Source: Lepidostoma basale (Eukaryota; Arthropoda; Insecta; Trichoptera; Lepidostomatidae). Taken from it: a stretch of 64,000 nt of DNA. Shown here one piece after another: positions 5,281-63,560 of this stretch. The stretch covers positions 868,001 to 932,000 of the forward strand of contig JAHDVF020001468.1 of assembly GCA_022606425.2 (NCBI GenBank), given 5' to 3'. How positions within the stretch are numbered: the stretch's first letter is position 1; every line of letters begins with the position of its first letter. The position numbers and the translations under genes were made by a program. The notes under the pieces are model-generated. The model did not search any database and was not told the origin of the DNA. It worked only from the letters and a program-made list of their open reading frames with translations.

Positions 5281-5318
5281 GCCCTGGGGAAGCTTGGGTA
5301 CAAGCGAAACTAGTCGGC
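5281..5318 (+). ncRNA. Hammerhead-like core, family E, isolated copy
   Basis: GCC (5281-5283) can pair with GGC (5316-5318) as stem I. CTGGGGA (5284-5290) stands where CTGATGA is expected, with two changes. A free A is followed by GCTTG / CAAGC, a perfect 5-bp stem II with loop GGTA. GAAA (5306-5309) is followed by the palindrome ACTAGT and a C at the predicted cleavage position (5315). It matches family E at 35785-35930. Probably inactive because of the core changes. Confidence 0.45.
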
Positions 5319-5336
5319 AATTAAAAGAACCGCATA

Positions 5337-5925
5337 GTGGTAAAAAAACAAAATGTAGTGTTTTTATTTTTATTTTATTTTAAATATAAAAATAATATTT
5401 TTATTTTATTTATTTCTGCTACATTTCGAATCCGTTTTATAATTGAGCTTTTTGAGTTCAATCAAAACATTATTGAAAAGTCAGAATTATGGATTTTCAC
5501 AAGGTTAAGTAAACATATATTAAGATTGAAAAACGGAGTTTTGAAGGTAGGAAAAAGAATTAGAGGAGAATATGTACTAATCTATATGCTAATAAAAAAA
5601 ATGTAATGTAGATAATATTACTACAATTATAATAATAATTTTTTACCTTTTTATTTATACCGTATCGTTCAAATTTAATTCGTGCAAAAAAACTCTGAAT
5701 AACATTACTTAAAAACGCCTCAGTAAACAATATCGAAGAACAGACACATCGAAGTCTATAAAAACAGTTTCCAACGCTAACAGAATTTTTTTTTTATCAA
5801 ATCAATTTAATTTTTGAACAATAATTCAACAACAAAAAAAATACTTTAATTGGGTAAGTTTTTTTTACGTACGTTCAGATTTTTTCATATTTTTGTAAAT
5901 GTACGTTCGTCTAGACGTCTATCCT
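5337..5925. other. No supported gene
   Basis: Very AT-rich. An 89-residue frame here is dominated by F, I, K and L, as expected from composition alone, and has no domain. Confidence 0.5.
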
Positions 5926-5929
5926 AGGA

Positions 5930-6261
5930 CAGTGGTCGGCAAACTGCGGCTAGCGAGCCAAATGCGGCTCTTTGGTTACTTGAATGCGGTGCTTAAAGAT
6001 TAACGTCTTTAAAATACATTTTGAAAACAGTATTTCAATAGATAATTCAATCGAAAGTAAATCGAATTAAAAAACAACAACATACATACACGTCTTACCC
6101 AGATGTTCAGAGGAAATGCAAGGGCATTGATAAATTTAAACATGTTAACATGGCAATGTTTAATTTTATTATAATCAAGATTTTTGGATCATCTCAAAAG
6201 AAATCTAAATCTATATGTGTTAACATTTGACTCTTTTGACTTACGAGTTTGTTCACCACTG
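5930..6261. mobile_element. hAT-type non-autonomous element
   Basis: Starts CAGTGGTCGGCAAACTGCGG and ends gttcaccactg. The flanks tcctagga (5922-5929) and atctagga (6262-6269) form an 8-bp target duplication with some decay. The internal words gcgagccaaatgcggctc resemble those of widespread hAT MITEs. No transposase remains. Confidence 0.75.
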
Positions 6262-6394
6262 ATCTAGGACATTTCATGTCTACCGCCGTTATCGTATTAT
6301 TATAATATTTTTTACTAGTTACAGATATTACTTACGTACCTATACAATTTAACCTAACGATTTTAATGAATATCTTGATAGTAGTTAATTTTAA

Positions 6395-6950
6395 ATAATA
6401 ATGTAATAAACGATGTTTTTAAATAACTGCTTCCACTTTTGTCTTTTGTCTGACGAAAGGTCTAGTCTACAGATTCCAGGTCGCCCAACGCGCCATGGAA
6501 AGAGCCATGCTTGGAATAACCTTGAGGGACAGATTTAGTAACGAATTTATTCGTCAACAAACCAAGGTGACTGAGATGGCTCTAAGGATGGGCGGGCTAG
6601 GGTGGCGATGGGCTGGCCATATCTGTCGGAGAACCGACGGCCGATGGGGGAGACGGGTTCTGGAGTGGAGACCGCGTACAGGATTCCGCAGAGTTGGACG
6701 TCCCCCTGCCCGCTGGACCGACCATCTGAAGAGGATTGCTGGACCTGGATGGATGGGTGCGGCAATGGATAGGGGGCGGTGGCGTTCTTTGGGAGAGGTC
6801 TACATTCAGCAGTGGATGACAGACGGCGGATGATAATGATGATGATGATTTTTGTCTATATTTCGACAGCGACCAGTTTGGCGAAACCGGTCGCTGTCGA
6901 AATAAAGACTAAAGTGGAAATAGTTATTTAAAAACATCGTTTTATTTCAT
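6395..6950. repeat. Foldback family A, split by an RTE insertion
   Basis: The left arm (about 6405-6451) reads aacgatgtttttaaataact and the right arm (about 6858-6945) is its complement ending aaaacatcgttttattt. Near the centre, cgacagcgacc and ggtcgctgtcg pair around the GGCGAAACCGGTC motif shared with 55350-55545 and 61535-61660. An RTE fragment sits at 6452-6849. Confidence 0.7.
6452..6849 (+). mobile_element. RTE-like LINE 3' fragment with intact C-terminal frame and 8-bp target duplication
   Basis: The + frame 6495-6833 (112 residues) contains MLGITLRDRFSNEF, RWAGHICRRTDGRWGRR, RPRTGFRRVGRPPARWTD and WMGAAMDRGRWRSLGE, then stops at a (GAT)n-like tail. It is flanked by ttttgtct (6444-6451 and 6850-6857). 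It is the C-terminal end of a non-LTR reverse-transcriptase protein, 5'-truncated at insertion. The only other copy in the window is at 1340-1660. Confidence 0.85.
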
Positions 6951-7475
6951 TATTATTTTACATATAAATTGATCGTTACAATAACACTACTAAGCCTACA
7001 CTTTTAATGATATAACGAGATTTATTAACATTTAGTTATTTTTATTAATTGTGACAAATGTCTAACAAAATTGGTTCCAAATCACTCCTTATTTACATAT
7101 GTTGAAATTATGTATTTTACTGACAATCTAAATTTGCTGTGAAGAGTATCGGTGCCAAATAACCCGTGAACTCCTGAACTTTCGTAATTTTTGAGATTAC
7201 GAAATGTTACGCGAGCGCGTTCCTATTAAAAAATATCTTCACAAAATGTTAGCTGTATCTCCACAATAATGTGGTGTAATACTTATTTTTGTGACCCCAA
7301 AAGGAGAACCAGTAAGGTCCAATCAAATTTCAAGTATACACACATTATATGTGTAGATACCACCATGAGTATATTGTTTACATAATTCTGTCCTACAAAT
7401 TGATTATAATTGTTATATCCAATTTAAAAATATTTACGTTACAAAAACTTTGATATCAAATTCATAAGAATTATT
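6950..7475. other. No gene seen
   Basis: AT-rich intergenic DNA with no frame, RNA or repeat signal that I can support. Confidence 0.5.
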
Positions 7476-7477
7476 AA

Positions 7478-9403: not shown

Positions 9404-12400
9404 TCGAGATGAACGGGGGATCGGGCTGCAGGTGTACACAGCTGTGGTCCTTTTCCTGGATATTCTCCTCCTCATGGTCAAGCTGACCCTCACCTACATA
9501 GAATCTGTATACAGAATGATCGTACCTGTTGAACCAAAATCAGTCCAGGGAGAAATTATTCTGGTTAGTATTATTTACTTTTTTTTAACTTCAATTGAAT
9601 CATAAAAATATTACTATTATAAGTAACCCAAATATATTTTATATAATAACATTGCCTTAGTTTCAATTGTGATAAGATATGTATTTTCATGTAAAAATGT
9701 AATCAAAACAAAAATACAATATTTTTTAAATACTAATAACCCTTTATAATATATTTTTAATTTAATTTCACGCTTTATGGCTTTGACCAGTTTTGGGTAC
9801 TTACTGCCATCTTCTGATAGATATCAGAAGCTGCCGAAACTGGCCAAACCCATAAACCTAAATAGAATTGAACTACATTATTATAATGGAATTTTTAATT
9901 ATTATTTTTTCGTTATTTACAATGAACTTTTACCAAAAAAATTCAAAAACAACATTAAGATTATCCTTAATAACCCTTTCATTTGATAATATTGTAATTT
10001 TAAATTCTATGATTGATTACAAATATATCAAATGTCTCCCTCTGTTCACATATTTTGTTTCACCATTTTTAATTCTATTTGCTTTTTAGAAGCAATCGAT
10101 ATTTCAAACCATCACAAATGAGTAATGCTAACACACCATATGAAGAAACGTCTATTTTTAATCATTTTCCGCAATAGAATTGATGTAAAATGAATTAATT
10201 AAATTTCTGTTAATCAAAAGGAAACCAAGGATGGATTCTGACAATACCTATTAAAAAAAAAAAATTTTTTAATTTTAGATAACTGGCACTGGACATGGTA
10301 TTGGTCGAGAGCTCAGCTTGCAGTACTCCGCCTTAGGAGCAACTATTGTGTGTGTAGACATAAATGAGAAAGGTAACTTGGAAACAGTTAAGGAGATCAC
10401 AGGGAGAGGAGGAAAGGCACATTCTTTTGTGTAAGTATTGTACATAGACATATTTTTACATTCAAAATACACTTCAGACAGGATCAGAGAATCACAAGAA
10501 TCTCGCATCTCACACATATTTCCTATCATTTAATTATATTTATTGACATATTTAAAGCCATGTTTATATTGTTCTATTTAATTCAATTCCTTCATGCTAT
10601 TACTTACTTACTTCCTATGGCCATACAACTCTTGAAGAGTTTTAGCCTCCTTGATGATTTTTCGCCAAGCTCCTCGATCCTGCGCTTTTTGCTCCCAGCA
10701 GTCCGATTCGCCCAACCTAGCCAGGTCAGCCACAGAGCATTGTCCATTAGGCGCTGTCTAGGCCTTCCTAGAGGTCTTACTCCAGTGGGTCTAGACGCGT
10801 ACAGGGTCTTGATTGCTCTGGTCTCTTTGGCTCGGCATACGTGCCCAATCCATGCTAGGCAACCGGCTCTCACGGTGCTCGTTATAAGGGGCTGCTGGGT
10901 CATCGTACGGATCTCTTGGTTGGTCCTATGCCTCCAAGTTCCTGCTGCAACACCGGGTCTGGGTCCCAGGATCATTCTAAGTATCCTATTCTCAAACCAA
11001 ATTCATGCTATGAGATGGGTTTTTATAAAAGCATTTGATAACTTGTGAGAAGGATTCATCAATGCATGAAATTATTGATACAAGCATTAGCAATACCAAA
11101 GTTGTTAATTACTCGAGTTGAATAAATATATTACTTTTAGGTGTGATGTTTCGAGCCGTGAAAAGGTTATGGAATTAGCTTCTCGCGTCAGATCAGAAGT
11201 TGGCGAGGTATCTGTGCTAGTCAATAATGCCGGTATCATGCCATGCAAAAAGTTCCTCGATCACAAAGAGGAAGAAATTCGCAAGATGTTTGACGTCAAT
11301 GTTTATGCTCATTTCTGGGTAAGTAAATACATAAAATTGTCAAAGTATTTTCAATTGAAACATGTAATAAAATAATAAATTTTATATTAAAATAAAATGT
11401 TTGCACAAAAAAGTTACTGATGTGATTTTTTTTAACTGGTAATATTAATTAAAAACCAATATTAGATCATATTAATAGCAGTTTCAGATATGATTATTGT
11501 TTTTGAAGAAAAATACAGGTCTATATTCATTTTTTGTGCCTTTTATTAAAGGCAATTCTTATAATTAATATTTATCAATAACATTTTATACTGACAATAT
11601 GGTTTAAATAATGTATTTAGGCACCTACCGACTAATTTTTGACCTTTACCACTCGTATGTCAAGTGTGACACAACAATGTAGACTCGATGTTATACAACA
11701 CAGTTTTTCATATTAATAACAACAAAAATAGTGCACTTCACTATCCCAATACGATTTTTGATTGAGACGTTTTCTGTCTATAAAATATAAATTAATTAAG
11801 CAGTTGATGAGAGGAAAAAATGTAAGATGTGCTAAGGGTTAAATAATCAAATAAAATAATAATATTGTACAATTTTAGTCATTTGTATCTACACCACTTT
11901 ATTTGATAACACCAACCGGTTTCGCTCCCGCCGGAGATACAAATTACTAAAAGTGTATTATTATTTTATTTAATAATGTCACATCACAAAATAAGTGCTT
12001 CATACGAAAGGTTAAATAATCTCTCATCAGAATATAAATTTACATTTCAGAAAACATATGATCTCATCCTTACATTAAAATGGTTACATTGTGCTGTTGA
12101 CAATGTGTACAAAATAGTAATAAATATTGTTTAACTTAACAGTTGATTCAAGCATTCCTGCCCAGTATGATCAGCAGAAACCATGGTCATATTGTGGCCC
12201 TCTCGTCTATGGCTGGAGTGGTAGGCCTGACTAACCTTGTGCCTTACTGTGGATCCAAGTTCGCCGTCCGAGGACTGATGGAAGCCCTTGCTATTGAGCT
12301 TAGTGATGATCCACGACAGTTGAATGTAAGTTTAAGTTGGTTATTTCCAGGTAAAACTGTTTTATGTATTTTACTAATAATTTCCAAATTAACATTGAAT

Positions 12401-13166
12401 TTCATATTATTTCTTCTTCTTCGTTTCTTCTTGGTATTCGGGGTCAAATTTTTATTACTTTAAGCAAGGTGTTTCACTGGTAGATCAGATATCAGGGGCA
12501 TTTAATCCACGTATAGAAATTCCAAGGTGTGAACTTGTATGATTGCAGTAAGGTAGTGTACAATAGTTGCTATATTAAGTTAATTGGGTACGCAGTCAAA
12601 AGCTTTTTTTAGGTCTATGTTACTACCAAGTTAACTAATAATAGTAAACACGATTGTTTAGTGGTTTTACTTAGATTTAATTTATATAAATTAGGACAAA
12701 TTTGTTTCACCTTGCGAGGGCAGAGAATGCCCTTCTCGAAAGGCGAAACAAATCTGTCACAATTTATATAATTTATAAAAATTAAATCCAAGTAAAACCA
12801 CTAAACAATTGTGTTTACTATTATTAATTAATATGGAGTTTTGCAAAACTAATACCTCAACCATCAATACCAAATTAACATTTAATATTTTGTTTTAAAT
12901 TTCAGATTAAGACTACAACAATTTACCCATACATTGTGGATACTGGACTCTGTCATAAGCCGAGAATTCGTTTCCCAAGTCTCTTACGTATCGTTAAGCC
13001 AAACGAAGCTGCCACAGAAGTCATTGATGCTATGAGGAGAGAAAAGGTGGAACACTCCATTCCTTTCACAATGCTCTTATTAAACAACTATTGCAGGCTG
13101 CAGCCTACTAAGTTTGGAATTCACTTAAAAGGTTTTATTGACAGTGGACTCGATGCCCACGAATAA
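9404..13166 (+). CDS. Short-chain dehydrogenase/reductase, SDR16C-like (17-beta-HSD11/13 or RDH10 type), first exon missing
   Basis: Five coding exons joined by GT-AG introns: 9404-9563, 10279-10430, 11141-11318, 12143-12325, 12906-13166. They keep one open frame of about 310 residues ending in TAA. The order is an N-terminal membrane helix (VVLFLDILLLMVK), the cofactor motif TGTGHGIGR (usually TGAGHGIG), an aspartate after beta-2 (CVDINE) that favours NAD, the CDVSS segment, VNNAGIM, the catalytic serine in ALSSMAG and YCGSK (Tyr-x3-Lys). The family reduces or oxidises retinoids, sterols or fatty alcohols at ER or lipid-droplet membranes; the substrate here is unknown. Exon 9404-9563 opens in mid-codon, so a short upstream exon with the start codon was not found; the internal ATG at 9417 is out of frame. 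Introns carry a LINE and foldbacks, none in the exons. Confidence 0.88.
9775..9857. repeat. Short foldback in SDR intron 1
   Basis: tttatggctttgaccagttt and its imperfect complement ending ggccaaacccataaa enclose cttctgatagatatcagaag. It carries CGAAAC followed by TGGCC, resembling the core of the larger foldback families but more degenerate. Confidence 0.45.
10595..10990 (-). mobile_element. LINE C-terminal fragment in SDR intron 2, with (AGTA)n tail
   Basis: The minus-strand frame 10975-10604 (123 residues) contains TNQEIRTM, RAGCLAWIGHVCRAKETRAI and RPLGRPRQRLMDN, the C-terminus of a non-LTR retrotransposon protein. It is followed by an AGTAAGTAAGTA tail (read on the minus strand) at 10599-10611. 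The 162-residue frame on the other strand is only its shadow. Confidence 0.8.
11875..11975. repeat. Foldback remnant in SDR intron 3
   Basis: gtcatttgtatct and agatacaaat(t)ac pair across a centre containing aaccggtttcgctcccgccg. On the minus strand this gives CUCC GGC GGAG, then GAAACCGGUU, the GAAAC-palindrome motif of the other foldbacks. The CUGANGA segment is not preserved. Confidence 0.5.
12640..12840. repeat. Foldback family B in SDR intron 4
   Basis: The arms start taatagtaaacacgattgtt and end with the complement aacaattgtgtttactatt. Next inward are gtggttttactt / aagtaaaaccac and atttatataa repeats. The centre has gtttcaccttgcgaggg and ccttctcgaaaggcgaaac. On the minus strand the GAAAC is followed by the 10-base palindrome ACAAATTTGT and then C, the stem III pattern of the other foldback families. 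Full length about 200 bp. Confidence 0.7.
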
Positions 13167-20338: not shown

Positions 20339-20339
20339 A

Positions 20340-24900: not shown

Positions 24901-27900
24901 TACTCAGGCATGGAGTAGTAGTTTCGGTGATGAACGGGGAGGGAAAACTCCCGCGAGATGTATCAAAGACCCAGGATATCCACAAGCTACTGCTTGCTGC
25001 TGAAAACAATGAACAAAGAGAGAGAGAACTCAAACTTCTTGCAGCAGCTCGAGAAGGGAATGTGGAAATCTTCAACAAACTAGTGTGTATTAAATATACA
25101 TTTTAAATAAATGCATACGAGTACTCCAATAAGTTAAAGCAATTAAGTGTAAAGTGTAAATCAGTGATTACAAATTAATGGATTATTTCAACACCAAAAA
25201 ATATAATATAATTTGCCATTAAATATAAATATTTCACACTGGACAAAATCAATATCAATATAATTGATAATATTGGTTTTGGTTCTGCTTACATCAATTT
25301 TTGTCCCATGTTTGCATATTCAAATTTTAATACTGAAAACTTAAACAGATATAATTAATACAAATGAAAATGTCAGTTTTCTAGAAGTTTTATTATATTT
25401 TATGGGAATGACATGTTTCGCCGTTCTAAGGCATTTTCAAATGTATGATAATGATATCACATTTGACAATGCCTTAGAAGGGCAAAACATGTCATTCCCA
25501 TAAAATATAATAAAACTTCTAGAAAACTGACAATTTTATTTGTATTAATTATTTAATATGAAGTTTTACATCATTGTTCAAGAAACAATAAATTAAACAG
25601 ATATGTTTTATGTTCCATGCCAATTTAAAAAAATAACTTCTATTGTTTATTGGTTAATTTTATGTAAATTTATGGTAATTAACTAAAGACTATTAATTAA
25701 TTAAAGACATTTCTATACGGATAAATTTATATACATATGTACTGGTACACCCCTTGTACAAAATCGATCAATAAAATATAAATTACAAAATTTTGATTAC
25801 TTATTAAAATTACATAAGTATGGAATATAAAATTTATTTTGTATTAAGTATTATCCTAGCAAGGCGAAACATGTCACTCCCATGTAATATAATAAAACTT
25901 CTAGATCCCAGTTAAATACTAGATCATTTGCTATATAAATATGTGAACGCTTTGTTAGTACACAATGTATACTAAAATAATAAATGTTTACTTATTGTAT
26001 CTTGAACAATGATATAAAACTCCATATTAAAAATGTGTTTGAATGAAAACATCTGTTTTATAGAAGTTTAAGTATATTATACGGGAATGACATGTTTCGA
26101 AATTAAACTTTTTTAAATGTTAAATTGATAAGGCGGTAACATTGAACTGGGTGACCTTCATATTTAAATCAATAACTAAATGTACTGCATTGCACATAAG
26201 TTTAAAATAGAATTGGTAATCCCCAATCACCGAAGGTTAATATCCTATTAGAATTATTGACTATATTAAGACATTTTTTTATTGTTGTTGTACATTGAAT
26301 ATGCTTTTAACCTTTTGATAAACTTTTTTGATTATACGTATGTCATTTAGCATTCTTAAAATTGTGAATTAATAACATTGCAATTAATGAATAGTATATT
26401 ATACCTTTTTGTTCTAATTTTATTTAATATCGTTCATTTGAAAATTTAACATTATATTTATTTATCATTTATCGTGTACATGATTTTGAAGCATTCCAAC
26501 TGCTGAAACATGTTCTAGGGAGGCATTTATATTAACCCTTTGGTTGCCGGCACTTCTGGAATTACTATGCCAAAATAGCCACGATTTTAGAGAAAGTAAT
26601 TTAAAAATAAAATGTATAATATACGAGTATTTATAAACAGTCTGTAAAATAAGCCCTTGTACGAAGGAAAAAGAATCGCGTGTGGAATGTGGAAATCACA
26701 GAGCTATTAGTCTTTTGAGTGTCAGTAAAGTCTATGGCAGAATTTTAATAGAAAGAGTAAGAAAATTGTCGAGTGACAAAGTTTGGAATGTGCAAGTTGC
26801 CTTTATGAATGGCAGAGGATGTATGGATCAAATTTTTGGACTTCGTACATTGACAGAGAAGTTTCTGACCAAAAACTGCAAACTTTTCTGTGCGTTTGTC
26901 GATTTCCTAAAAGCATATGATTACATTAATAGAGTAAAGTTGTGGAAAATATTGTCTGAATATGGAATAAGTACAAAACTGATCACACCAATTAAGTCGC
27001 TATATGCGGAAAGCAGAGTCAGAGTAAACAGAGATCTTACAGTCTGGTTTGATATCAAGAAAGGTGTCAAAGAGCTGAAGGTTGAATGTAGATGCTAAAA
27101 TGAGCGGTGTGTCAGTAAGCTGTCTCTTTCATTCTTAAGCCCACCGTTAAGTTTGTAAGCCATGCCATTAATTTAGCTTTATCTCGGTGTGCAAAAAATA
27201 TTCCCAGTAGAGTCCAAACACTACGAGGAATGTATAATAAATGTATGTGTTCTAAACAACTGATAGACATCAGACCCGTAGTTACTGGCTGTCCAATTTT
27301 CTTTTACATTTAATGAAATCTTTTAACTCTAAATATGCTTTTTTAATTAAAAATATATACAAATGTAGCACTGACTCACTCCCTCACACTCTGTCTAAAA
27401 CGTATATGATTATTTTATAAATCATGGCTTCGATCCGTCAGATTCAGTACTTCTCACTAGTGTAGCGAAAGCCGATAATTCGGATTTCAGCAAACAAATG
27501 GTGATGTTAATGTAATTTTTGTACTTTTCTGTTTAGTTACGGAACCCACAACCACCCAACATCAACTGTGTAGACACCCAAGGTAATAGCTGTTTACATT
27601 GTGCTTCATATAGAGGACACACTCAACTAGCAGTCATATTACTTCAAAATGGGATTGATTCTACTATTCGAAATATTAACGGTAATTATTATTTATCAAC
27701 TTTTCAAAAACTGTGACTTCTTAACATGTACAATACTTAAATATATAAGAATACAGTTATATATATTATTATTTGTTCACTTTGGACAAAATGAATATTA
27801 TTTATATCATCATCCATTTGTCACAGAACAGGTTTCGCCTAATGTGGCTATTATAGATTGCACAAACTGTGTAAAGTGTAAATATTGTATAATTAAATCA

Positions 27901-30900: not shown

Positions 30901-33900
30901 ATCTTGCGCAACCCGGAACAGCTCCTCCACATGTCTCATCCCGGTTCAGTCTTTTATGTTGTACAGCCAAGACGTTTGCCTTCTACCAGGACCACGCTGC
31001 CCCTCAATTTTTCCCATCAGTATTCTTCTTCTTCTTCTTCTTCTTCTTCAGCCTGTATTGACCGTCCACTCCTGGACGTAGGCCTCCTCTCGCATTTTCC
31101 ATTCTCTTCTATTCTGAGCGATCCGCATCCAGGCACTTCCTGCACTTCTCCCGATATCGTCGCGCCAACGCAACTGTGGGCGCCCAACTCCACGCTTTGC
31201 CATCCTTGGCCACCAGCACAGCAGTCGCCTTGTCCACTTTTCCTCTGGATCGCGAGCGACATGTCCCGCCCATCGCCACTTGAGGGTTGCGGCCATCTTG
31301 ATAACCCATCAGTATTAGTTGGAGCAAACTGTATTTCAGTATTAGTTGGAGCAAGCTGTATTTATCTCCTATCAGTATTAGTTGGAGCAAACTGTATTTA
31401 TCTCCCTGCAGAATGTGACCCAGATATGAAATCTTACGGACCTTATCGTCCTTTAGCAGTTGTCTACTACAATTGTCCACGGTATGCGAAGCATTCTCCT
31501 GTGCAACCACACTCGAATGCTTCCAACCGGTTCATAGTGTGCACTTTCAGGGTCCAAGTCTCCAAGCCATAGAGTAATACCGACCAGACATAGCACTTCA
31601 ACCTTCTCTGCCATATACAATATAATTTATTTTTATTATAACAAAAACCTACCTAAATAGATAAACCTAACATCCCCATTATTTATTTATGTAGGAATGG
31701 ATAACAGCCTTCAAGGAACATATTGCTTACTCGGCTTACTACCTCTGGGGCTGCGAACGCAATGGAGAAACAGCATCCTCCCAGGACCATGATGATGATG
31801 AAGAAGAGGCCGCCGGAGATAGTCGGGGAGGCGGAGAGGGCCAGGGCCGGCCCTTGGGCAGTATGCAGGATGCCCTTACAGATGCCACTAACCACTTGGC
31901 CCTTCTTGAGTCACAACTCGGGGAGTGTGCCGCATTGCTTGCTGCGCTGGAGAAGAGTATTCATATGGGAACCACACTCCATCAATCCACCTACATGGTT
32001 AATAGTCAATTATTTTACTTTAAACTTTGTATATGCGATTTTTTTATGAATTAAAACATTGTTTTTTCCACTTTTAAGTATGTTTTTATCGATATGTTTC
32101 GAAGACTTTACACCTTCATCATCGGGAGAACGGTATAGACTGTTTATATCGTTAGTTTAAACCATCTATATCATTGGTTTATATCGTTCTCCTGATGACA
32201 AAGGTGAATTTGAACATTTCGAGAAAAATAAACTCAAAAGAAGAAAAAATACTGATTCAATTCATAACAATTCGTCATTCTTGAATTCTACAGTTTTCAT
32301 ACCTTGTGTTTACCAAGAAAATTGTATTGAAATATGATGTATGGTGAAATACTACACGAAGGAATAAGTAAGGAATGTAGAGTACGTGTACGCATCCACA
32401 TTAAAATTAAGAAAGGGTCACCAAGACCATTTGTACTTATGGAACAAATAGAGTAGGATAAAATGGTTGAAAGTTATATGCAAGCAATGTGAATGGTAAA
32501 AAGAGTAAAGGTAGGCAGAGTAATACATGGCATGACCAGTGGCGGTATTTCCATACAAGCCGAAAAGCCGGGCTTCCCTTAAAAAAATCTACAATAAAAC
32601 AAAGTTTTTTTGAATATTCGTGCGAGTTAAAGCAATTTAATTCATTGCGTTGCAAATGACTCCAATGACATGCGCTGAAATGACCTAAGTGTATGTTTTG
32701 TTCCACTCATACGCACAGTATTTTATTTCACTCATACGTACCGTAGGTGAGATGCCTGCGAAATCGCCTACATGTTTTGTTTCATATTTTTGATGGGCTT
32801 CATATCAGGCTTGCTAAATGTAAATGGGTCTTTGTCGTACTTATGTATATTTGGCTTGTGATCATATAGCTAGGTGCATATATACCAGAAGATTACCCAC
32901 AATTTTTTGTATGGATTTGAAGCCGGGCTTTATCTCTCTGAAGTATGTTACTATTCGATGTGGCACGAACTACATTTCTATTGTCAGAATGTTATCTGTC
33001 ATTTACCTTATGTGCAGAAATGTTATGAAAAGAAAGAATATATAATTTCTTTACGAACATTTATTTATAATTCATGTTTCGGTGTTAACATTATTGTCTA
33101 TTTACAGCTTATTTCTTATTAATTATATTTCTTCTTGTATTTGTAAATACATTATTATATTATACAAGAACAATAGTTTGATGACACAGAAAATTATTTT
33201 TAGTTTAGATTTAAAATGCGCCTAAAATGGGATTTAAAATCAATTAATTCACAAAATTAATTTAGAAAGATAAAACTCTTTTAATCCGAAAAAAAAACGT
33301 TATCGTGACCCTCTACTAATATTATAACACAAAAAAGTCAGACGGGCTTGCCTTACTGGTAGAACCTAGGCACGCTACTGGGCATGACCAGTTATTCTAC
33401 TTCTGACTGGTTTTAATAGTTCATTTCCATCTTTTGGTGGATCGGCAGCTAGCTGAATAATCTAATTTTTATTTACTGTTCCATTGTAACTTTACTTTTT
33501 ATCTCCAAGCGTTTTCAACACGTGGGTTGTACGGGCCAGCGGGTCCTCAGCACCCTGAAACACTGCCTGGCTCTGGTGCGGCAGGCAGACGAGACTCGCG
33601 GGGCGCGGCTGAGGGCCGAGAAGGAGCGCTGTCGGGTGCTAGAGGAAGCCCTTGCAGTGCTGGCTGCAGAACACCATGACCTTGAACAGTCCTTTGCGGA
33701 GCAGATTTCAGAACATAAGGTACAATAAAGGGCAGCTAGTAAACATGTTTTTAACTAAAAACATGAATAAACATAAGATATTTATATGTGAAACAAATGG
33801 GAAATTATTTGTTTAATCATTTAGAGTGGATTGATAAAAAAATGAATTAATGTTAATGCCTTAAGTTTATCAAATATAAAACAAGTACAATTGTATTTAC

Positions 33901-35234: not shown

Positions 35235-35780
35235 GTTAGTGCCATTATCACAATTGTGATTTTATGTTATTTTTAAAGAGCTATATAATTACTTCTAATA
35301 ATTTTATGGTAGTTATAAAAACAAATATATTACCTGTACCTTTGTACTTTGTATTTTCCTTTTGAGATCAGTTTTTAGGCTGCTTTTAGTAGTCATGTGA
35401 TTAGTCGTCTCTTGAACAAAATTGTTAGTATGTTTAATGTATTTTCTTCATATAGTTAAGTCTTTTACGTAAACAGATTACATTTTCTAGAAGGTGTTTG
35501 AACAGTATCTTCCAATAACAATGAAACATGAACGTGAATTTTGATTTTGATGAGAAGTTTAACTCTATTCATTTTCGTATTTTCATAGATATTTTCATGC
35601 AAGTTGGCAAAAATTTACCTTTACGGTACATTTTTATAATTGCAGTGTGAAATGGCACAATCATCCATTGCTGTGAAAAAATATTAATTGTATACAAGAT
35701 TAATTGTCAAGTTTTATCCTTTTGTTTATTAAATTTTCATATGAAGCACTTACTTTGTGGTTAGACATTTTAAACTTACA
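35235..35780. other. Start of a very long ORP1 intron or 3' flank; no exon seen
   Basis: AT-rich sequence following the phase-2 splice donor at 35235-35236 (gttagt). No continuing exon recognised. Confidence 0.5.
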
Positions 35781-35784
35781 GATA

Positions 35785-35930
35785 TAAAATAATAAAACAC
35801 TTTGTATTTAACCACGGTATGGTTATTATAATTGATGCCAACTAGTTATTATATTGCCCTGATGAACTTGGGTCCAAGCGAAACTAGTTGGCATCAACCA
35901 AACCTCGTTTAAATACAAAGTGTTTTAAAT
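35785..35930. repeat. Foldback family E with hammerhead-like core
   Basis: Arms aaaacactttgtatttaacc and its complement ending aatacaaagtgtttt; inner gatgccaactagt and actagttggcatc. The right half carries the best preserved ribozyme-like core in the window (35855-35893, listed separately). The left half has lost its core. Confidence 0.75.
35855..35893 (+). ncRNA. Hammerhead-ribozyme-like motif, family E, type specimen
   Basis: Stem I TGCC (35855-35858) pairs with GGCA (35890-35893). CTGATGA (35859-35865) is an exact core. After one extra A come CTTG / CAAG (stem II, loop GGTC) and C. GAAA (35880-35883) is exact. Stem III ACTAGT (35883-35888) is self-complementary. T at 35889 is the predicted cleavage position. 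This is the circular order of a type I hammerhead with a dimer-type stem III. Departures: the unpaired A (and an A-C opposition) between A9 and stem II. Activity is not shown. Confidence 0.6.
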
Positions 35931-35934
35931 AGTC

Positions 35935-36175
35935 CATTGTTTTGGCCGAAACACTATGATGCTTCAACATTATTACTGTTAACGCTGTTATAATATCACA
36001 ATTTATTTTTATTCACTGAGAATGTCACGACAGCTGTTTCGCCAACCGATGTTGGCATCATCGAATATGCCAACGTCGGTTGGCGAAACACCTGTTGTGA
36101 CATTCTCAGTGAATAAAAATAAATTGTGATATTATAACAGCATTATAAATTTTAACAGTAACAAAGTGTTTTATT
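35935..36175. repeat. Foldback family F, first copy
   Basis: Arms tataatatcacaatttattt and its complement, then cactgagaatgtcacgacag; centre ttcgccaaccgatgttggca. On both strands GCCAAC / GTTGGC forms a perfect 6-bp stem II followed by GAAACA and a GCTGT or CCTGT palindrome-like stem III. The CTGATGA segment is decayed here, but kept in the copy at 50600-50880. Confidence 0.75.
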
Positions 36176-36434
36176 ATTATATTTCTGTGAGTTTTAATTT
36201 ATTTCATATTTTATTTATTTATTTTAGCATCAAAGTGTTAACTATATGCTTCAAAGATACTTTATTATTGTTCATCAAAAGATAATGGAGGCTTAAGATT
36301 TACTTTTTCTTTTCGATTAATCTTGTCATCTATTATAATACCTCAATTACATATACTATGCAATTTTTTTAAATTTGATTATCTCTTTTTTTTTTTTTAT
36401 TGAAAAAAAAAATTATGACGTAGTGAGACAGTTC

Positions 36435-36590
36435 ACTAGTCGGAATAATCGACGTGCGTGCATGGTACGATGTATGAATGTAGAGGAAACCCGAGAGGTA
36501 TGCCAGGACAGAGCATTGTGGCGATCCATCCTCTCTGCCTACCCCTCCGGGGAAATGGCGTGATGGTTAGTTAGTTAGTTAGTTAGTTAG
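36435..36590 (+). mobile_element. LINE tail of the (GTTA)n family, short but open
   Basis: Reads SRNNRRACMVRCMNVEETRE, VCQDRALWRSILSAYPSGEM, a stop, then tggttagttagttagttagt. Confidence 0.85.
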
Positions 36591-42224: not shown

Positions 42225-42304
42225 GGAAACATTGGATTATCACAACACTTTTTTGCGCTTTTCACAAACATGTTTCGGGAAAAAAACTTCCCTTCTTCAG
42301 TGTA

Positions 42305-42877
42305 ACTAACTAACTATCTAACCATCACGCCGTCTCCCCGAAAAAATGGACTAGGCAGAAAGAACTGCCACACTTTTCTTTCCTGGCATATTTCTCTCGC
42401 TTCCTCAACATTCATACATCGTGTCATGCACGCGCGTCGATTTCTCTGACTTCTCACATGGCCGACATTCAATATTTGATTTATTTGATCGTGCCAAGTT
42501 TTCCTCGGTCTTCCTCTATTTCTGGTTCCATTTACATCATTAACATACAATTTTTTTACCATTCTTTCTTCATTCATTCTTTCCATATGTCCAAACCATC
42601 TTAATGATCCTTTCATTATTTTGTTCATGACACCATCATTGGCACCGCATTCACTTATTTTATTTTCATTCGACACTATCATACACAGAGTATCCACACA
42701 TTTGTCTAAGAGATCTCATTTCTACTGCATTTATTCTACTTTCATCATTCTTTTGCCAGTTCCATGCTTCGCTTCCATACATAAGGGTCGGTAGAAGAAC
42801 ACCATTCACTTGCTCCAAATTTTCACCATTCACGCTAATGTTGCAGACTGTCATGGTTTCTTCCTTTTTAAAAAACT
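42305..42877 (-). mobile_element. LINE tail of the (GTTA)n family inside foldback G
   Basis: Minus frames 42854-42666 and 42697-42314 together give VLLPTLMYGSEAWNWQKNDE, ECGANDGVMNKIMK and RGRPRKTWHDQI through to the tail ctaactaactatctaacc. It is nearly as intact as 397-945, with one frameshift, and is 5'-truncated. Confidence 0.88.
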
Positions 42878-42902
42878 TTCAGTGTATGAAAGAAAAAAAT
42901 CA

Positions 42903-42944
42903 TACACTGAAGAAGGGAAGTTTGTGTCCCGAAAGATGTATGTG
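42903..42944 (+). ncRNA. Hammerhead-like motif, family G
   Basis: Stem I TACA (42903-42906) with TGTG (42941-42944; three Watson-Crick pairs and one G-U). CTGAAGA (42907-42913) fits CUGANGA. One extra A, then GGG / CCC stem II (42915-42917 with 42928-42930). GAAA (42931-42934). A GATGT stands where other G copies have ACATGT. A at 42940 is the predicted cleavage base. Confidence 0.5.
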
Positions 42945-43004
42945 AAAAACGCAAAAAAGTGTTGTAATAATACAATGTTTCCAAAAAGTTATTCAAATGT
43001 GAAT

Positions 43005-44035: not shown

Positions 44036-44039
44036 CGAA

Positions 44040-50064: not shown

Positions 50065-50595
50065 ACTTGTTCCCTTTCATAGCTAAACTGAAATAAACGC
50101 CGTCTTATTCCTCTGTGTTAGAATGGTCGGACTTGTTACCATTCTTAACAAAAACATTGGTTTTGATCTACAGAAAAGTAATCCATCGAAATTGACATAT
50201 ATGAAAAAGTCCGTTTTGTTACGTTTCTTGAATAACCGATTCATATATATTTCGCAGACTTATTTCTTGTTCTCTATCTAACTTTATCCAGGCTCAGCAG
50301 TAAAGTTTATAAAGTATCTTTATGAAGTCAAACGATGTTTCCATATTTTTTACATCACCGTCCCGTCCCTATGATGAAAGTTTTATATGTATATTCGCTG
50401 TATTAGGCATAAATACTCGTATACTGATATGTATCGTAGAATATACGGTGTTCTATTTGATCCAAATATGTACGAGTATTACAGAATATCACGTAGTTAA
50501 TGCGTTAAGTTTCTGTGTTAATAATGTTTTAAATTTTGGCCATCAATTTCTTGTTCACGAAAAACACTTAGATTTATTCTTATTTTCATATTAAA
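50065..50595. other. No gene seen
   Basis: AT-rich; may include further decayed parts of the unknown coding fragment, but I cannot show it. Confidence 0.4.
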
Positions 50596-50599: not shown

Positions 50600-50880
50600 T
50601 TCTTAACCCATTGTTTTGACCGAAACACTATGATACTTCAACATTATTACTGTTAAAATTTAAAACACTGTTATAATATCAAGATTTCTTATTATTCACT
50701 GAGAGTGTCGCGACAGCTATTTTGCCAACCGATGTTGGCATCATCAGGTGTTTCAATAAACGTTTATTGTAACACCTGATGATGCCAACATCGTTTGACG
50801 AAACAGCTGTTGCGACACTCTCAGTGAATAAAAAGAAATTGTGATATTATAACAGTGTTTTAAATTTTAACAGTAATAAA
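50600..50880. repeat. Foldback family F, second copy, cores kept on both strands
   Basis: Arms gttataatatcaagatttct and its complement, cactgagagtgtcgcgacag and ctctcagtg; centre cctgatgatgccaacatcg on each strand. Target-side words (ccattgttttgaccgaaaca and aacagtaataaa) are shared with 35935-36175. It gives two oppositely oriented hammerhead-like motifs. Confidence 0.8.
50773..50816 (+). ncRNA. Hammerhead-like motif, family F
   Basis: CAC (50773-50775) stem I; exact CTGATGA (50776-50782); extra T; GCCAAC with TTTGAC (one mismatch to the family's GTTGGC); GAAA (50800-50803); self-complementary ACAGCTGT (50803-50810); T at 50811 predicted cleavage base; GCG follows (GTG in the sister copy restores CAC/GTG). 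The minus-strand twin at 50713-50752 also keeps CTGATGA and a perfect GCCAAC/GTTGGC stem, but has AAAAT for GAAAC. Confidence 0.55.
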
Positions 50881-52135: not shown

Positions 52136-52224
52136 ACGTAAGATTCTGAAATCGTATATAGTATAATATAGTGACAATTTTTTAATGAATTAAAACACTG
52201 TTTTTTCCACTTTTGAGTTTATTT

Positions 52225-52268
52225 TTCTTGACATGTTTCGAAGCATTACACCTTCATCATCGAGAGAA
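52225..52268 (-). ncRNA. Hammerhead-like motif, family D, minus copy
   Basis: Read on the minus strand: TTCTC, TCGATGA (one change from CTGATGA, another at the first base), T, GAAGG...CTTC stem II, GAAA, palindrome ACATGT, C, then AAGAA (GAGAA in the other copies). Confidence 0.5.
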
Positions 52269-52495
52269 CGATATAAACTAACCAAAATTATTACAAACTG
52301 GGTGCAAGAACCTAGATACATATATAACACGTGTTAGTTAACTTGGCGAGTACTAGGAATATAACAATAGAAAAAAAAATTAACCCATTGATGTCTATTG
52401 TTATGTCTCTAGTACTCGCCAAGCAACTTACACATGTAATATATGTTTCTAGGTTCTTGCACTCAGTTTGTAATAATTTTGGTTAGTTTATATCG

Positions 52496-52539
52496 TTCTC
52501 CCGATGATGAAGGTGTAAGTCTTCGAAACATGTCGAGAA
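52496..52539 (+). ncRNA. Hammerhead-like motif, family D, plus copy
   Basis: TTCTC (52496-52500) pairs perfectly with GAGAA (52535-52539) as a 5-bp stem I. CCGATGA (52501-52507) has one change from CTGATGA; the copy at 32192 has the exact core. Extra T; GAAG / CTTC stem II; GAAA (52525-52528); ACATGT (52528-52533); C at 52534 is the predicted cleavage base. Confidence 0.6.
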
Positions 52540-52824
52540 AAATAAACTCAAATGTGGAAAAAAGTGTTTTAATTCATAAAAAAATCGTCATTATGGAATT
52601 CCACAGTGTTAACACCTCAAGTTTATCTGAAATTTATAATATTGTATAATGTGTTATATTAGTAAATTTATATTTTATTATAAAAACTGGTCAAAGTTAA
52701 GAGCATATAAAAATTGGAGAGTTTTCTCCAGGCGTTGTCTAGTAATGTGTGATAATTGGGTTGATAGACTTTCACATTACAATAATAAAGATTTTCTGCT
52801 TAATGCTTACATCTATTCTCAATA

Positions 52825-54659: not shown

Positions 54660-55345
54660 TACATATATTTTTTTTTAAAAGTTCCACACTGCTAACGCCT
54701 TAAGTTTATGGAAAATTATAAATACGATTATTAAAAAATTTTCAATTCATGTTTAATTACGAGTGTGTTCCCTGTTTAACGAACATATGAAAAATTAACA
54801 TATTTAATTGAGTTCATGTCCAGAACTTAATTTGGTGAATTTCCACACGCTATATGTAATATTATACGAGTATTACATACACAGTGTTTGTGTATTGAAC
54901 GCATCCCCGAATCAACTTTTTTTGTTTTCTGAAAGAATTATTTTCAACGATCACAGTTTTTTTTCCTTACTCTTTCTAGACTCGATGTCTCTGCTTATTT
55001 TTTTTTAAATATTTACAATATATGTAAATAACTCCGTGCTTTAATTTTAACCTAATACGAGTATAGCAGAATGTTGTCACCTAAGGATTAATGGATGTTT
55101 GTTTGTGTATGTGTATGCTTTACGGTTTTCTTTGTACGAATATTAATTAATCATGACTCAGCCAATTTCATATTTACTTAAATTAAATTTAATTAATCAA
55201 GGATCATTTATTATACAATAATATTAAAGCTTGGTAATATTTTAAGGTTGGTGTTATAAAAATTTCACGTTATAATAAACATTACAAATAAAATTTACAA
55301 ATATATTTTTTATATAATCAAATGATTTTAATGAAATCTCTTGAT
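54660..55345. other. No gene seen
   Basis: AT-rich unique DNA. Confidence 0.5.
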
Positions 55346-55349
55346 GGAA

Positions 55350-55545
55350 GTTCACTTTAAATAATAATTAAATAAAACGATGTTTTTTAACTACTTCCAC
55401 TTTTGTCTTTATTTAGATAGCGACCGGTTTCGCCAGGCTCGCTGGTACCAGTCTGTCGATGCCAGCGAGCCTGGCGAAACCGGTCGCTGTCTAAATAAAG
55501 ACAAAAGTGGAAGTAGTTAAAAAAACATCGTTTTATTTAATTATT
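55350..55545. repeat. Foldback family A, complete copy
   Basis: Near-perfect palindrome: aataaaacgatgttttttaa, cttccacttttgtctttatt, gatagcgaccggtttcgcca, then the centre and the complements. The two arms are about 85 bp each. Hammerhead-like cores face outwards on both strands (plus copy 55449-55489). Confidence 0.88.
55449..55489 (+). ncRNA. Hammerhead-like motif, family A
   Basis: CAGT (55449-55452) pairs with GCTG (55486-55489) including one G-U. CTGTCGA (55453-55459) differs from CUGANGA at one core base. Extra T; perfect GCCAG / CTGGC stem II; GAAA (55476-55479); ACCGGT (55479-55484); C at 55485 is the predicted cleavage base. Confidence 0.5.
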
Positions 55546-56719: not shown

Positions 56720-57215
56720 GGATGGAAGTGTTTAATGTATGGAAACGAAGCATGCAACTGGCAGAAGAAGGATGAAAGCAGAATAAATGCGGTAGAGATG
56801 ATGTCCCTAAGACGTTTGTGTGGTAGAACGATATACGACAGAATCTCAAATGCTGATATAAGAAAAGAATGTAGAGCGGAAGAACAAAATTATTATGAAC
56901 AAAATTATGAAAAGATCGCTGCGATGGTTCGAACATATGGAATGCAAGGATGGAGAAAGAATGGTTAAGAAAGTATACGTTAATGATGTAAATGGATTAC
57001 GGAGTCGAGGCAGACCGAGGAAAACATGGCATGACCAAATTAATAAAATTTTAAAGGTGGGTCATGTTAAAAATCGGAGGAATCGACGTGCGTGTATGAC
57101 TCATTGTATGAATGTGGGGGAAGCTAGAGAGGTTTGCCAGGATAGAGTAGTGGGACGGTCCATTGTCTCTGCCTATCCCTGCGGGGAAACGGCGCGGCAT
57201 GATGGTTTGTTTATA
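56720..57215 (+). mobile_element. LINE tail of the (GTTA)n family, diverged subfamily
   Basis: Two frames: 56735-56968 (YGNEACNWQKKDESRINAVE, MMSLRRLCGRTIYDRI) and 56895-57239 (MNKIMKRSLRWFEHMECKDG, SRGRPRKTWHDQINKI, RRACMTHCM). One frameshift separates them. The tail is short (atggtttgttt). Confidence 0.85.
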
Positions 57216-57239
57216 AAAAAAAAACATTTTTATGCATAA

Positions 57240-60239: not shown

Positions 60240-60340
60240 AGTAAGTTTATATCATTATCCCGATGAGAATGTATAACCTTCGAAACATGTTGAATAAATT
60301 CTCATAAGCCGAAAAATGGTTTTAAAATTCATAAAGAAAA
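60240..60340 (+). repeat. Foldback family D, half copy
   Basis: cccgatgagaatgtataacc, ttcgaaacatgttgaataaa. GAAAC and ACATGT are kept; stem I is degenerate. Confidence 0.55.
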
Positions 60341-60344
60341 ATGA

Positions 60345-60895: not shown

Positions 60896-60899
60896 TCTC

Positions 60900-61535: not shown

Positions 61536-61660
61536 TGTTTTTAAATAATTATTGGAACCAGAACATCGATGCCAGGCAGCCTGGCGAAACCGGTCGTTGT
61601 CGAAATAAAGACAAAAGTGGAAGTAGTTATTAAAAACGTCGTTTTATTTAAATACTATTT
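61535..61660 (+). repeat. Foldback family A, half copy
   Basis: aacgatgtttttaaataatt, then atgccaggcagcctggcgaa with a perfect CCAGG / CCTGG stem, ACCGGTC, and the arm aataaagacaaaagtggaag. The left arm is deleted. Confidence 0.7.
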
Positions 61661-61667
61661 TATTAAT

Positions 61668-61735
61668 TAATACGAACGAAAACGTCAGTTTTCTAGAAGT
61701 TTTATTATATTTTATGGGAATGACATGTTACGCTA
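61668..61735 (-). repeat. Foldback family C, half copy
   Basis: aatacgaacgaaaacgtcag, ttctagaagttttattatat, gggaatgacatgttacgc. Confidence 0.6.
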
Positions 61736-61739
61736 AAAG

Positions 61740-62050
61740 TTACTTACTATTTTATTGAACTTCCTACAAGAGATTTCAGTAAAATCATTAGATTATCTGA
61801 AACTGTTGTTGTTCCATGCATATGTTATTATTATTTATGTTTGTTCCTTCGGGTAGAATCATCTTATCTTTTGTTGTATCCAACAATACACAGATTTCAC
61901 GGTAAACTAAATTGTGAAGCCCTATTGTGATGGTCTATACAATATTAAGGGAGCTTTGAACCCGGATGTCACGTCCATTAGTTTAATTTTTCATCGCTGA
62001 AATATGATTTCGGGAAGGTTTATATGAGTATTTGACCGTTTTGTTTAAAA
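61740..62050. other. No gene seen
   Basis: AT-rich unique DNA. Confidence 0.5.
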
Positions 62051-62054
62051 AAAT

Positions 62055-62510
62055 CTAAATAACTAACTAACGCCGCGCCTAAATAACTAAATAACATCAC
62101 GCCGTTTCCCTGCGGAGGCGTAGGCAGAGAGGATGGGCCGCCATACTGCTCTATCCTGACATACCTCTTCGTAACATGCACGCTCGTCGATTTTTCCGAC
62201 ATCGTAGATGGCCGCCTTTCAATATTTGTTAAATTTTGTCATGTCATGCTTCCCTTGGTCTTCCACGGCTTCTCTTTCCACTCACACTACTTGTATACTA
62301 CATTTTAACTACACTTCTCTCGTCCATTCGTTCCATATGTCCAAACCATCTCAGGGATCCTTTTATAATTTTACTTGTGATGCAATCATCTGCCTTACAT
62401 TTCTTCCTTATTTTGTCGTTTGGTATTCTATCATATATCGTTTTCTCGCACATTCTTCTCAGTGATCTCATTTTTACGGCTTTTATCCTACTTTAATCAT
62501 TTTTTATAAA
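62055..62510 (-). mobile_element. LINE tail of the (GTTA)n family, diverged
   Basis: Tail taactaactaacgccgc at 62060-62077; the minus strand then carries all the blocks of the family (MNKI-, RWFGH-, RGRP- and RRAC-like positions) with frameshifts and different 3' bases (gtttccctgcggaggcg). Confidence 0.8.
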
Positions 62511-62514
62511 TTTC

Positions 62515-63280
62515 TGTATAATTTAATTAAAACGAAAAATTGTTCTAGAAAACCCTTTCTTAGATTATTTAGAAAGCTTAATCTGAATTTATTGTTTTTG
62601 GGGGCTGGAAGAGGTTTCCACTTCAAGAGAAGTATCCTGACTATACTGAAACGTGACCCACCGTACATGAATTTTCATTTGTATTAATGAAACGAACCGA
62701 ACTGTTTTGTTGGCTATACCGCACAACCTGTATTTCTACAGCTTTCTAATTTGGTCTATACAATCGTTGTCTAATTAAATTCATACAGTTAGTACTTCAT
62801 CGAATTGTTATATTGAAATCTTTTTCATTTATTGATTGAATTTCGAATTTCGTAATTGAAGAAAATGTCGATTCAAATTTTTTTTTATTCGAATAACTCG
62901 GTCTTTTTTGGCAAAAGGTTCCAGATGCGTTTTTTTTTTGTGAAATTGAGTTAAATATACCATCAGTATTATTTTTGCACACTTTATCTTTTGACAAAAC
63001 GTTAGAGCTGTATTTTTTTTCTTATTTTTTTTTTATGTACAATTGCATTCAACCTCTACTTTTTTTTTAAATATATATCTACTTTTTATATAATTTAGTT
63101 ACTGATATATTTTGTAGATAACGTTATGCTACGTAAATTGACATTTGAATTAAACAATTCGGAACACAAATAATATTTTTATAAATAATCAAAATAATGT
63201 AAAAATCTTATTTTTGCTCTCCTGTAAAATTCATAAAAAAAGCAGTTGGGACCTTTTGCCAATTAAGTACCGAATTTTCT
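62515..63280. other. No gene seen
   Basis: Very AT-rich with long T runs (62880-63070). Confidence 0.5.
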
Positions 63281-63284
63281 GCAA

Positions 63285-63560
63285 ACATTGTATTTTCACA
63301 TTACTTTTTTGCACTTTTCACAAACATGCTTCGGGGCACAGACACCTTTTCTCAGTGTAGAAATATTAAAAAATTTACCATAATAAAACGTTTCTACAAT
63401 ATTTCGGGACACAGACGCCCTTCCACAGTTTAGAAATGTTATTTTTTTTTACATTATAAAAATTACACTCTTAAAAATTCTTCAGTGAAGAAATGCGTCT
63501 GTGTCCCAAAACATGTTTGTGAAAATTACAATCAAGTGTTGTGAAAATAATTTCCATAAG
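63285..63560. repeat. Foldback family G, second copy, with three core-like units
   Basis: Minus-strand units at about 63302-63362 (CTACA, CTGAGAA, ...CCCC, GAAGCATGTT, TGTG) and about 63380-63435, and a plus unit at about 63482-63525 (GTGAAGA...CCC, AAAACATGTT, TGTG). Outer words ttttcacaaacatgcttcgg and tttgtgaaaattac pair. Confidence 0.7.

Follow-up and report, generated by a model that had tools for sequence, protein, structure and literature searches.

Foldback families with a hammerhead-like fold in Lepidostoma basale, likely inverted pairs of Penelope-like retroelement ends

The window analysed here is a 64,000-nucleotide stretch of the Lepidostoma basale genome (contig JAHDVF020001468.1, positions 868,001 to 932,000), from which all repeat copies described below are taken. 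It contains eight families of foldback elements (A, A2, B, C, E, F, G and H) and a single copy, D, which is close to C. We consider it probable (about 0.6) that each of these foldbacks joins two copies of the same retroelement 3' end head to head and was made by two-sided reverse transcription of the Penelope-like kind. A type I hammerhead-like core is kept in five of the eight families (A, C, E, F and G) and in copy D. The window is 66% A/T and foldbacks are abundant in it, with 94 inverted pairs of at least 25 nucleotides (nt) within 1500 nt; decay is common among the foldback copies. The features are listed in Table 1.

The core was searched with a descriptor in which stem I is followed by CUGANGA (up to two mismatches), n extra bases, stem II, GAA, a palindromic stem III beginning with A, a non-G base and the second strand of stem I, all stems having at least 3 base pairs (bp). 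Five matches were found for n = 1 (5284+, 52501+, 55453+, 42300- and 36064-, falling in A, D, E, F and G) and none for n = 0 or n = 2, so that all full matches carry one extra nucleotide between CUGANGA and stem II. For n = 1, 200 block dinucleotide shuffles yielded 0.08 matches on average and never more than 1, and the order of elements described in an earlier sequence-only reading of this DNA is thereby upheld. Two further positions, 35859+ and 61559+, are near matches. That reading had placed GAAA and a separate AC...GU one after the other; both are present, but they overlap in one shared A, which is also the arrangement of a normal hammerhead. A motif search counting this A twice gave nothing useful, and real matches appeared once it was shared. 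The hammerhead hallmarks (three-way junction, CUGANGA with GAAA, A15.1-U16.1 pair and H17) can be assigned by sequence in A, C, D, E, F and G, if up to two core mismatches are allowed and E is accepted without stem I.

The fold of the stems is conserved across families. In 15 copies from five families, C and D being counted together, 75.9% of the cells were paired against 55.9 ± 2.7% in shuffles, and 53 cells had changed on both sides against 23.4 ± 4.1; neither value was reached in any of 500 shuffles. Sliding the stem partners lowered pairing to at most 46.6%. With one copy per family (n = 5), 25 of 25 pairs were kept in stem II and 19 of 25 in stem I. When one chosen copy from each of the five families was permuted, D standing for C, these counts were reached by the true assignment alone (1 of 120). 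With stem II scored on four instead of five pairs, the observed value is attained by 2 of 120 assignments, since those pairs are common to A and E. In alignment A1 the copies D5 and G63m are shifted and stem III of E is longer, and both effects depress the stem I counts. This alignment leaves out the B, H and A2 copies as well as A55431, A6883, F32211, F48985, G63508 and E36085. The local minimum free energy structure of the best F copy (52495..52540) contains stems I and II, with a z-score of -1.08.

Two covariance models, whose E-values are rough, were built: R1 from all 15 aligned copies, and R2 from F, A and C alone. R1 gave 24 matches at E ≤ 5, all of them in named family copies or in a fragment beside an RTE tail at 43989-44052. 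R2, a custom model of the core with one extra nucleotide (+1) as the sequence-only reading had proposed, recovered the left-out copies G42, D5 and E36 (E-values in Table 1) and, more weakly, E36+ (0.13), E50- (0.15) and B25 (0.33); one of its 20 matches lies outside all families, at 50238-50306 (E = 0.49). R2 is based on alignment A3; the MAFFT alignments labelled A2 and A4, made for leave-out models, were dropped since the core was misplaced in them. The Rfam hammerhead models, also proposed in that reading, gave no match in the window at the gathering threshold or at E ≤ 10, nor in an 81-nt piece around the best copy, and we therefore name the fold hammerhead-like. This suggests that a +1-core hammerhead escapes the current Rfam models, in which case elements of this type may be under-counted.

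Target-site duplications (TSDs) flank six of the foldbacks. Exact TSDs of at least 12 bp were found at 5 out of 15 loci tested, compared with 4 out of 210 mismatched left-right flank pairs, and at least one of these four is E36k's own TSD, lying inside the flank window of C35k: E36k is inserted inside foldback C35k and took its TSD from C. Over six TSDs, including one with a mismatch, 61 of 74 positions are A/T. The six TSD-bounded copies are 161-273 bp long and, folded as RNA, form rods, of which that of A2 is the weakest; 38-49 nt stay unpaired at one end, while the opposite end is fully paired. The fold of E50k reaches -160.9 kcal/mol against a shuffle mean of -47.2.

The two arms of a foldback end at different but fixed distances. 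Between the predicted cut and the TSD, short arms measure 57, 59, 59, 64, 65 and 65 nt (n = 6) and long arms 99, 101, 101, 107 and 108 nt (n = 5), where in B, H and A2 the count starts from the place matching the predicted cut. The difference, a tail of 37-48 nt, is on one arm in all five foldbacks with both arms measured. A6k has the same asymmetry when aligned with A55k, A2 shows the tail in its fold, and the folds of F52k and F32k also look asymmetric, with bounds that were set by eye without a TSD. The arm ends of A61k, G42k, G63k, D and F60k are unreadable and were left out. The central junctions vary: taking the tip of the fold as the junction, its distance on the 5' side of the predicted cut ranges from 28 to 151 nt over seven foldbacks and differs within families (30 nt in E36k and 48 in E50k, 60-66 in F32k and 148-151 in F52k). 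The left arm of C begins at stem III and that of A6k in the middle of this stem. Fixed outer ends with variable junctions are the pattern left by target-primed copying when the copies are truncated at the 5' end, and here both sides show it. Within one E element the arms are 93-95% alike, compared with 84-92% for arms taken from different E copies, a pattern that would result if a single RNA family supplied both arms at the same time. Both copies cross the predicted cut site in all seven foldbacks measured, which suggests that insertion used RNA uncut by the hammerhead in most cases.

A similar peptide is encoded downstream of the fold, or of its remnant, in all eight families. Besides the tails in Table 1, the peptides read from the inferred first codon are MEFYIIVQDTISK in B, VNFHQEISLKSFD in A and MFPKSYSNETLHI in G. 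Over 13 rows, stops make up 5 of 325 codons in frame 0 and 28 of 312 and 26 of 312 in the other frames, a comparison in which the reading frame and start-codon anchors, chosen by eye, favour frame 0. Codons 2-10 have a mean BLOSUM62 score of 0.41 in nine rows against -0.48 in codon shuffles, and of 0.36 in the six rows without D, G and A2; none of 2000 shuffles reached either value. An ATG is missing from the A and D peptides; the F32 copy is shifted, and the weakest of all is G. The inferred start codon lies 58-69 nt after the predicted cut in A, C, E and F. In F52k the frame is open through the 44 codons examined upstream of the tail, across the hammerhead-like fold.

Table 1. Repeat copies and other features of the window (positions are those of the window; TSD, target-site duplication; R1 and R2, covariance models)
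Feature	Position	Strand	Evidence and remarks
Family G fold, CUGAAGA exact	42261..42306	-	descriptor match; R1 E=2.5e-8; left-out R2 (G42) E=1.4e-5
Family G fold, partner arm of the 42261..42306 foldback	42901..42946	+	R1 E=1.5e-6; inverted pair I7
Family F fold, best copy	52495..52540	+	descriptor match; R1 E=6.5e-9
Family A fold	55447..55491	+	descriptor match; R1 E=5.3e-6
Family E fold, stem I not kept	36025..36070	-	R1 E=1.2e-6; left-out R2 (E36) E=0.002
Family E fold, CUGAUGA exact, stem I not kept	50770..50815	+	R1 E=2.6e-6
Family C fold, exact CUGAUGA, 4-bp stem I, stem II short of one base	35853..35895	+	R1
Copy D fold, CUGGGGA core, close to C	5278..5321	+	descriptor match; left-out R2 (D5) E=3.8e-4
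Family A truncated copy	61557..61601	+	R1 E=9e-5
Family F decayed copy, no readable foldback	60254..60297	+	R1 E=2e-4
Family G decayed copy in foldback 63291-63549	63317..63362	-	R1 E=0.0011; inverted pair I14
Foldback E36k	35928..36160	+	exact 13-bp TSD ACAAAGTGTTTTA at 35915-35927 / 36161-36173; rod fold with a 46-nt unpaired end, opposite end fully paired
Foldback E50k	50604..50876	+	exact 12-bp TSD TAAATAATTTCT at 50592 / 50877; tail 43 nt
Foldback A55k	55315..55544	+	exact 13-bp TSD TATATTTTTTATA at 55302 / 55545; tail 49 nt in fold
Foldback B25k, hammerhead core not kept	25353..25592	-	exact 12-bp TSD TTAAACAGATAT at 25341 / 25593; tail 42 nt
Foldback A2, no hammerhead core	11849..12009	-	exact 12-bp TSD GGTTAAATAATC at 11837 / 12010; weaker rod, tail 38 nt
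Foldback H12k, no hammerhead core	12636..12867	-	12-bp TSD with 1 mismatch at 12624 / 12868; tail 41 nt
Foldback F52k, whole hammerhead-like fold in each arm	52160..52640 (approximate)	+	R1 52495-52540+ and 52224-52269-; 193 stacked pairs; no TSD found
Foldback F32k	32030..32320 (approximate)	-	R1 32085-32131-; folded as RNA; no TSD found
Foldback A6k, split by nested RTE-type fragment	6393..6962	+	arms align with A55k including its long left end; no TSD found
Foldback C35k, interrupted by E36k	35760..36205 (approximate)	+	R1 35853-35895+; arms read in sequence
Two family B ends facing each other (reverse of foldback order), near B25k	25866 and 26098	+ and -	region 25857-26098
Coding tail F52k	52593..52631	+	MEFHSVNTSSLSE
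Coding tail E36k	35932..35970	-	MLKHHSVSAKTMD
Coding tail H12k	12833..12871	+	MEFCKTNTSTINT; last codons reach into TSD
Coding tail A2	11976..12014	+	MSHHKISASYERL; last codons reach into TSD
Coding tail C35k	35730..35768	-	MSNHKVSASYENL
Similar peptide near copy D	5197..5235	+	SPYHKVNASYKNF; upstream of D fold, same strand
5'-truncated second RTE-type element in foldback A6k	6446-6850		(TGATGA)n tail; flanked by direct repeat TTTTGTCT
3' fragments of one RTE-type retrotransposon	417-950, 36440-36590, 42314-42715, 43721-44013, 47268-47594, 56862-57236		at least some with (GTTA)n end
Mariner-type transposase fragment	17189-17872		PF01359
zf-AD C2H2 gene			protein relatives n=21; best named: damselfly, ant, firefly

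Three traits of Penelope-like elements are found together in these foldbacks: a type I hammerhead-like fold beside the inferred start of an open reading frame (ORF) in A, C, E, F and G, inverted pseudo-long-terminal-repeats (pLTRs) with a tail on one arm alone, and short TSDs, exact at the five loci given above and with one mismatch at a sixth. Going by their sequence, the foldbacks are best filed as inverted ends derived from Penelope-like elements, short of proof, with no ORF body in the window. The missing body, which in Penelope-like elements encodes a telomerase-like reverse transcriptase and, as a rule, a GIY-YIG endonuclease, is expected, because the copies are truncated at the 5' side before any ORF body would begin.

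The mechanism that we propose would run as follows. A Penelope-like enzyme would nick both DNA strands and reverse-transcribe its RNA from each side, so that each arm would be one target-primed complementary DNA (cDNA); two reverse transcription start sites, 37-48 nt apart, would be used one per side. The two cDNAs, truncated at different points on the 5' side, would then be joined; the palindromic ribozyme segments may have served as the sites of annealing. In the parent element the ribozyme would trim multimeric transcripts at the pLTR, probably as a dimer formed through the palindromic stem III, and the RNAs that were copied would mostly be uncut at the predicted site. The particular version in which the long start is used on one strand and the short start on the other, and the palindromic hammerhead segments anneal the cDNA ends, we think more apt to be wrong than right. 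If the annealing role is true, the ribozyme sequence gains a second job in integration, at the level of DNA, for which cleavage is not needed.

Several observations limit these readings or weigh against them. Two of the five covariation measures are unremarkable (pairs with changes on both sides, reached by 195 of 500 shuffles, and further pair types, by 56 of 500). The sequence-only reading had seven or more families sharing the core; this stands for the five families and copy D and fails for B, H and A2, which keep GAAAC, the palindrome and a short hairpin without CUGANGA. Its statement that the stems stay paired across families agrees with the pair counts and the covariation given above and breaks down in family E, where an exact core stands beside a stem I that forms 2 of its 5 pairs in the copy examined (50708-50753-). 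Many copies thus appear unable to cleave as they stand, because E lacks stem I and B, H and A2 lack the core. Nine of the 15 loci tested have no 12-bp repeat. Apart from the choice of frame by eye, the coding tails have weak points of their own: the start codon of family G lies 34-35 nt after the predicted cut and not 58-70, and the D peptide (5197) lies upstream of the D fold (5284), both on one strand, an order that differs from that of the foldbacks and would result from a direct repeat of such ends. Copy D has the fold, but its seat in a foldback could not be demonstrated. For the five aligned tail peptides no protein relative was found among candidates limited to proteins of similar short length. 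Among the 13 ORFs searched against Pfam, out of 162 with at least 70 codons in the window, there is no GIY-YIG domain, and ORF 26637-27098 matches RVT_1 (E = 4.4e-9), a match that we take from its motifs to be RTE-type and not Penelope. The tails of 37-48 nt compare with 30-40 nt published, and the TSDs of 12-13 bp with 8-10 bp in the rotifer examples quoted in the relevant passages of PMC3846280. Nevertheless, the broader claim of the sequence-only reading, that these are ribozyme-bearing mobile elements, is supported by covariation, the leave-out model, TSDs and the shared coding tail, and of the two groups that it had named, Penelope-like elements are retained and retrozymes are not.

The main rival to the annealing of two cDNAs keeps the same Penelope-like elements and lets the foldback arise by self-priming, where the end of the template or cDNA folds over on itself at a palindrome and primes its own copying, so that a head-to-head inverted repeat results in a single step. 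For rotifer Penelopes, PMC3846280 proposes such priming at palindromes of the inverted junction, and some tips here are near-palindromic, for example CAATAAACGTTTATTG in E50k. A simple snap-back would give equal outer ends, however, whereas the two arms differ in length by 37-48 nt in each of the five foldbacks measured, and the tip of A55k is not palindromic. We therefore regard self-priming as rather unlikely. Considerably less probable are DNA foldback or miniature inverted-repeat transposable elements moved by a transposase, in which case the likeness to a hammerhead would follow from the palindromic nature of the DNA. Such elements would suit the long terminal inverted repeats, the short non-autonomous copies and the nested insertions. 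The ends, however, are asymmetric by the same 37-48 nt instead of forming symmetrical terminal inverted repeats, the junctions vary while the outer ends are fixed, the TSDs of 12-13 bp are not the fixed TSD of a transposase, the tails of eight families encode a similar peptide, and the stems covary around a fixed unpaired core.

Metazoan non-LTR retrozymes, which spread via self-paired circular RNAs made by the hammerhead, share with the foldbacks a small size (161-273 bp in the six TSD-bounded copies), low GC content, a weak stem III and a self-paired RNA, and have been reported in insects among others (PMC7229834, in part). Yet they are tandem direct repeats of 150-450 bp, and among the 13 tandem-repeat rows listed for the window (periods up to 500) the longest period is 36. 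Moreover, the arms here contain coding tails, and a monomer cut by the hammerhead would begin and end at the cut, whereas the copies run 28-151 nt through it. A retrozyme origin is accordingly very improbable. The least credible proposal sees the foldbacks as copies, in the genome, of a viroid-like RNA that bears hammerheads in both polarities. Such an arrangement is found in rod-like viroids, and R1 matches both strands of one foldback in F52k, E36k, E50k and G42k. These matches follow from the inverted duplication alone, and the asymmetric ends, TSDs and coding tails fit a retroelement, so that we give this proposal almost no weight.

An origin from RTE-type elements was dropped. Two reverse transcriptase-like ORFs, 6423-6833 and 42314-42715, adjoin hammerhead-like folds and were first taken for the parent element; they are nested fragments with their own tails, (TGATGA)n and (GTTA)n respectively, and the second kind is inserted directly beside a family G fold. 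The label RTE for the reverse transcriptase pieces in the window is provisional.

Other foldbacks and genes lie near these elements. A larger foldback at 44781-45745 has arms of 196 and 223 nt that are 95-98% complementary, and an 8-bp palindromic direct repeat is the sole repeat found beside it. Another, at 28594-28833, has 64-nt arms and is flanked by an exact 11-bp direct repeat, GACTGCCAGCT. R1 gave no hammerhead-like match in either. A2 is situated between the open frames 11109-11372 and 12140-12460, with H12k just after them; we take these frames to resemble short-chain dehydrogenase exons. The open frames 23773-24042 and 24885-25103, close to the family B foldback, presumably encode ankyrin-repeat-like peptides.

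We also searched viral contigs. A generic +1 hammerhead pattern gave 28 matches, most of them without the expected stem I, which were not used; the family A pattern gave none in these contigs. R1, run on 16 of the 28 loci, gave four matches, of which the best (E = 0.02, L003) is away from the pattern match and the other three (E 0.21-0.7) are at it. A near-identical sequence, CTGATGATGGCTGTTAGGCCGAAACGGGTA, is common to 11 of the 28 contigs (L001, L005, L007, L011, L012, L013, L015, L016, L017, L020 and L022), which have the hammerhead-like order without the expected stem I. The variant in L018 has GAC...GTC where the 11 have GGC...GCC, as if a small hairpin were kept.

The foldbacks bear on how Penelope-like elements insert, why their pLTRs are frequently inverted and what the hammerhead does in them, a role called unknown or a mystery in the passages of PMC7761336 that concern it. 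Eight ORF-less inverted-end families within 64 kb amount to a natural record of the reaction, with fixed 3' ends, variable 5' junctions, one tail per measured insertion and readable TSDs. In the literature searched, which leaves many journals outside, we found no paper on ORF-less, hammerhead-bearing foldback families of this kind.

Among known hammerheads, minimal type I forms of Penelope-like elements have reportedly been described by Cervera and de la Pena (2014) and by Lunse et al. (2017). The foldbacks resemble them in their small fold and in a weak or palindromic stem III suited to dimer cleavage; the full matches here carry the +1 nucleotide after A9. An extra core nucleotide is reportedly compatible with activity in the hammerhead of chrysanthemum chlorotic mottle viroid (De la Pena and Flores 2001), where it would lie between A9 and stem II; this is a plant viroid whose sequence is unrelated to the foldbacks. 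Metazoan non-LTR retrozymes are likewise small and non-autonomous, with a type I hammerhead and self-paired RNA, but differ in forming tandem direct repeats and circular RNAs, and there is no such array in the window (passages of PMC7229834).

The closest likeness is to two Penelope-like systems. In Adineta vaga, according to the passages of PMC3846280 on Penelope, pLTRs are inverted and one of them may carry a 31-bp tail at its 3' end, palindromes occur at the inverted junction, and the pLTRs run into the first 12 ORF codons, or 22 with the tail. Pen2a and others thus share with the foldbacks head-to-head inverted pLTRs, a single tail, a short TSD, a pLTR reaching into the first codons and junction palindromes. 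Unlike here, where the two ends alone remain, Pen2a and Pen2 keep an ORF between the pLTRs, and no hammerhead is mentioned in that paper, whereas the foldbacks carry a hammerhead-like fold. The second system is the Poseidon element PAc of Anolis carolinensis, for which the pertinent parts of PMC11167929 report that the protein cuts and extends both strands at AT-rich targets, that reverse transcription has two internal start sites with the 30-40 nt tail between them, and that the hammerhead lies at the ORF start, its mutants inserting normally with uncut RNA as the main template. Hammerhead position, two starts, cutting and extension of both strands and AT-rich targets match what is seen in, or proposed for, the foldbacks. 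In PAc the cut is 26 nt inside the ORF, reverse transcription starts 111-118 nt into the ORF and the start site does not differ between strands, while the foldbacks end 57-65 and 99-108 nt after the predicted cut. The foldbacks of Lepidostoma basale combine traits of rotifer Penelope and of Anolis Poseidon.

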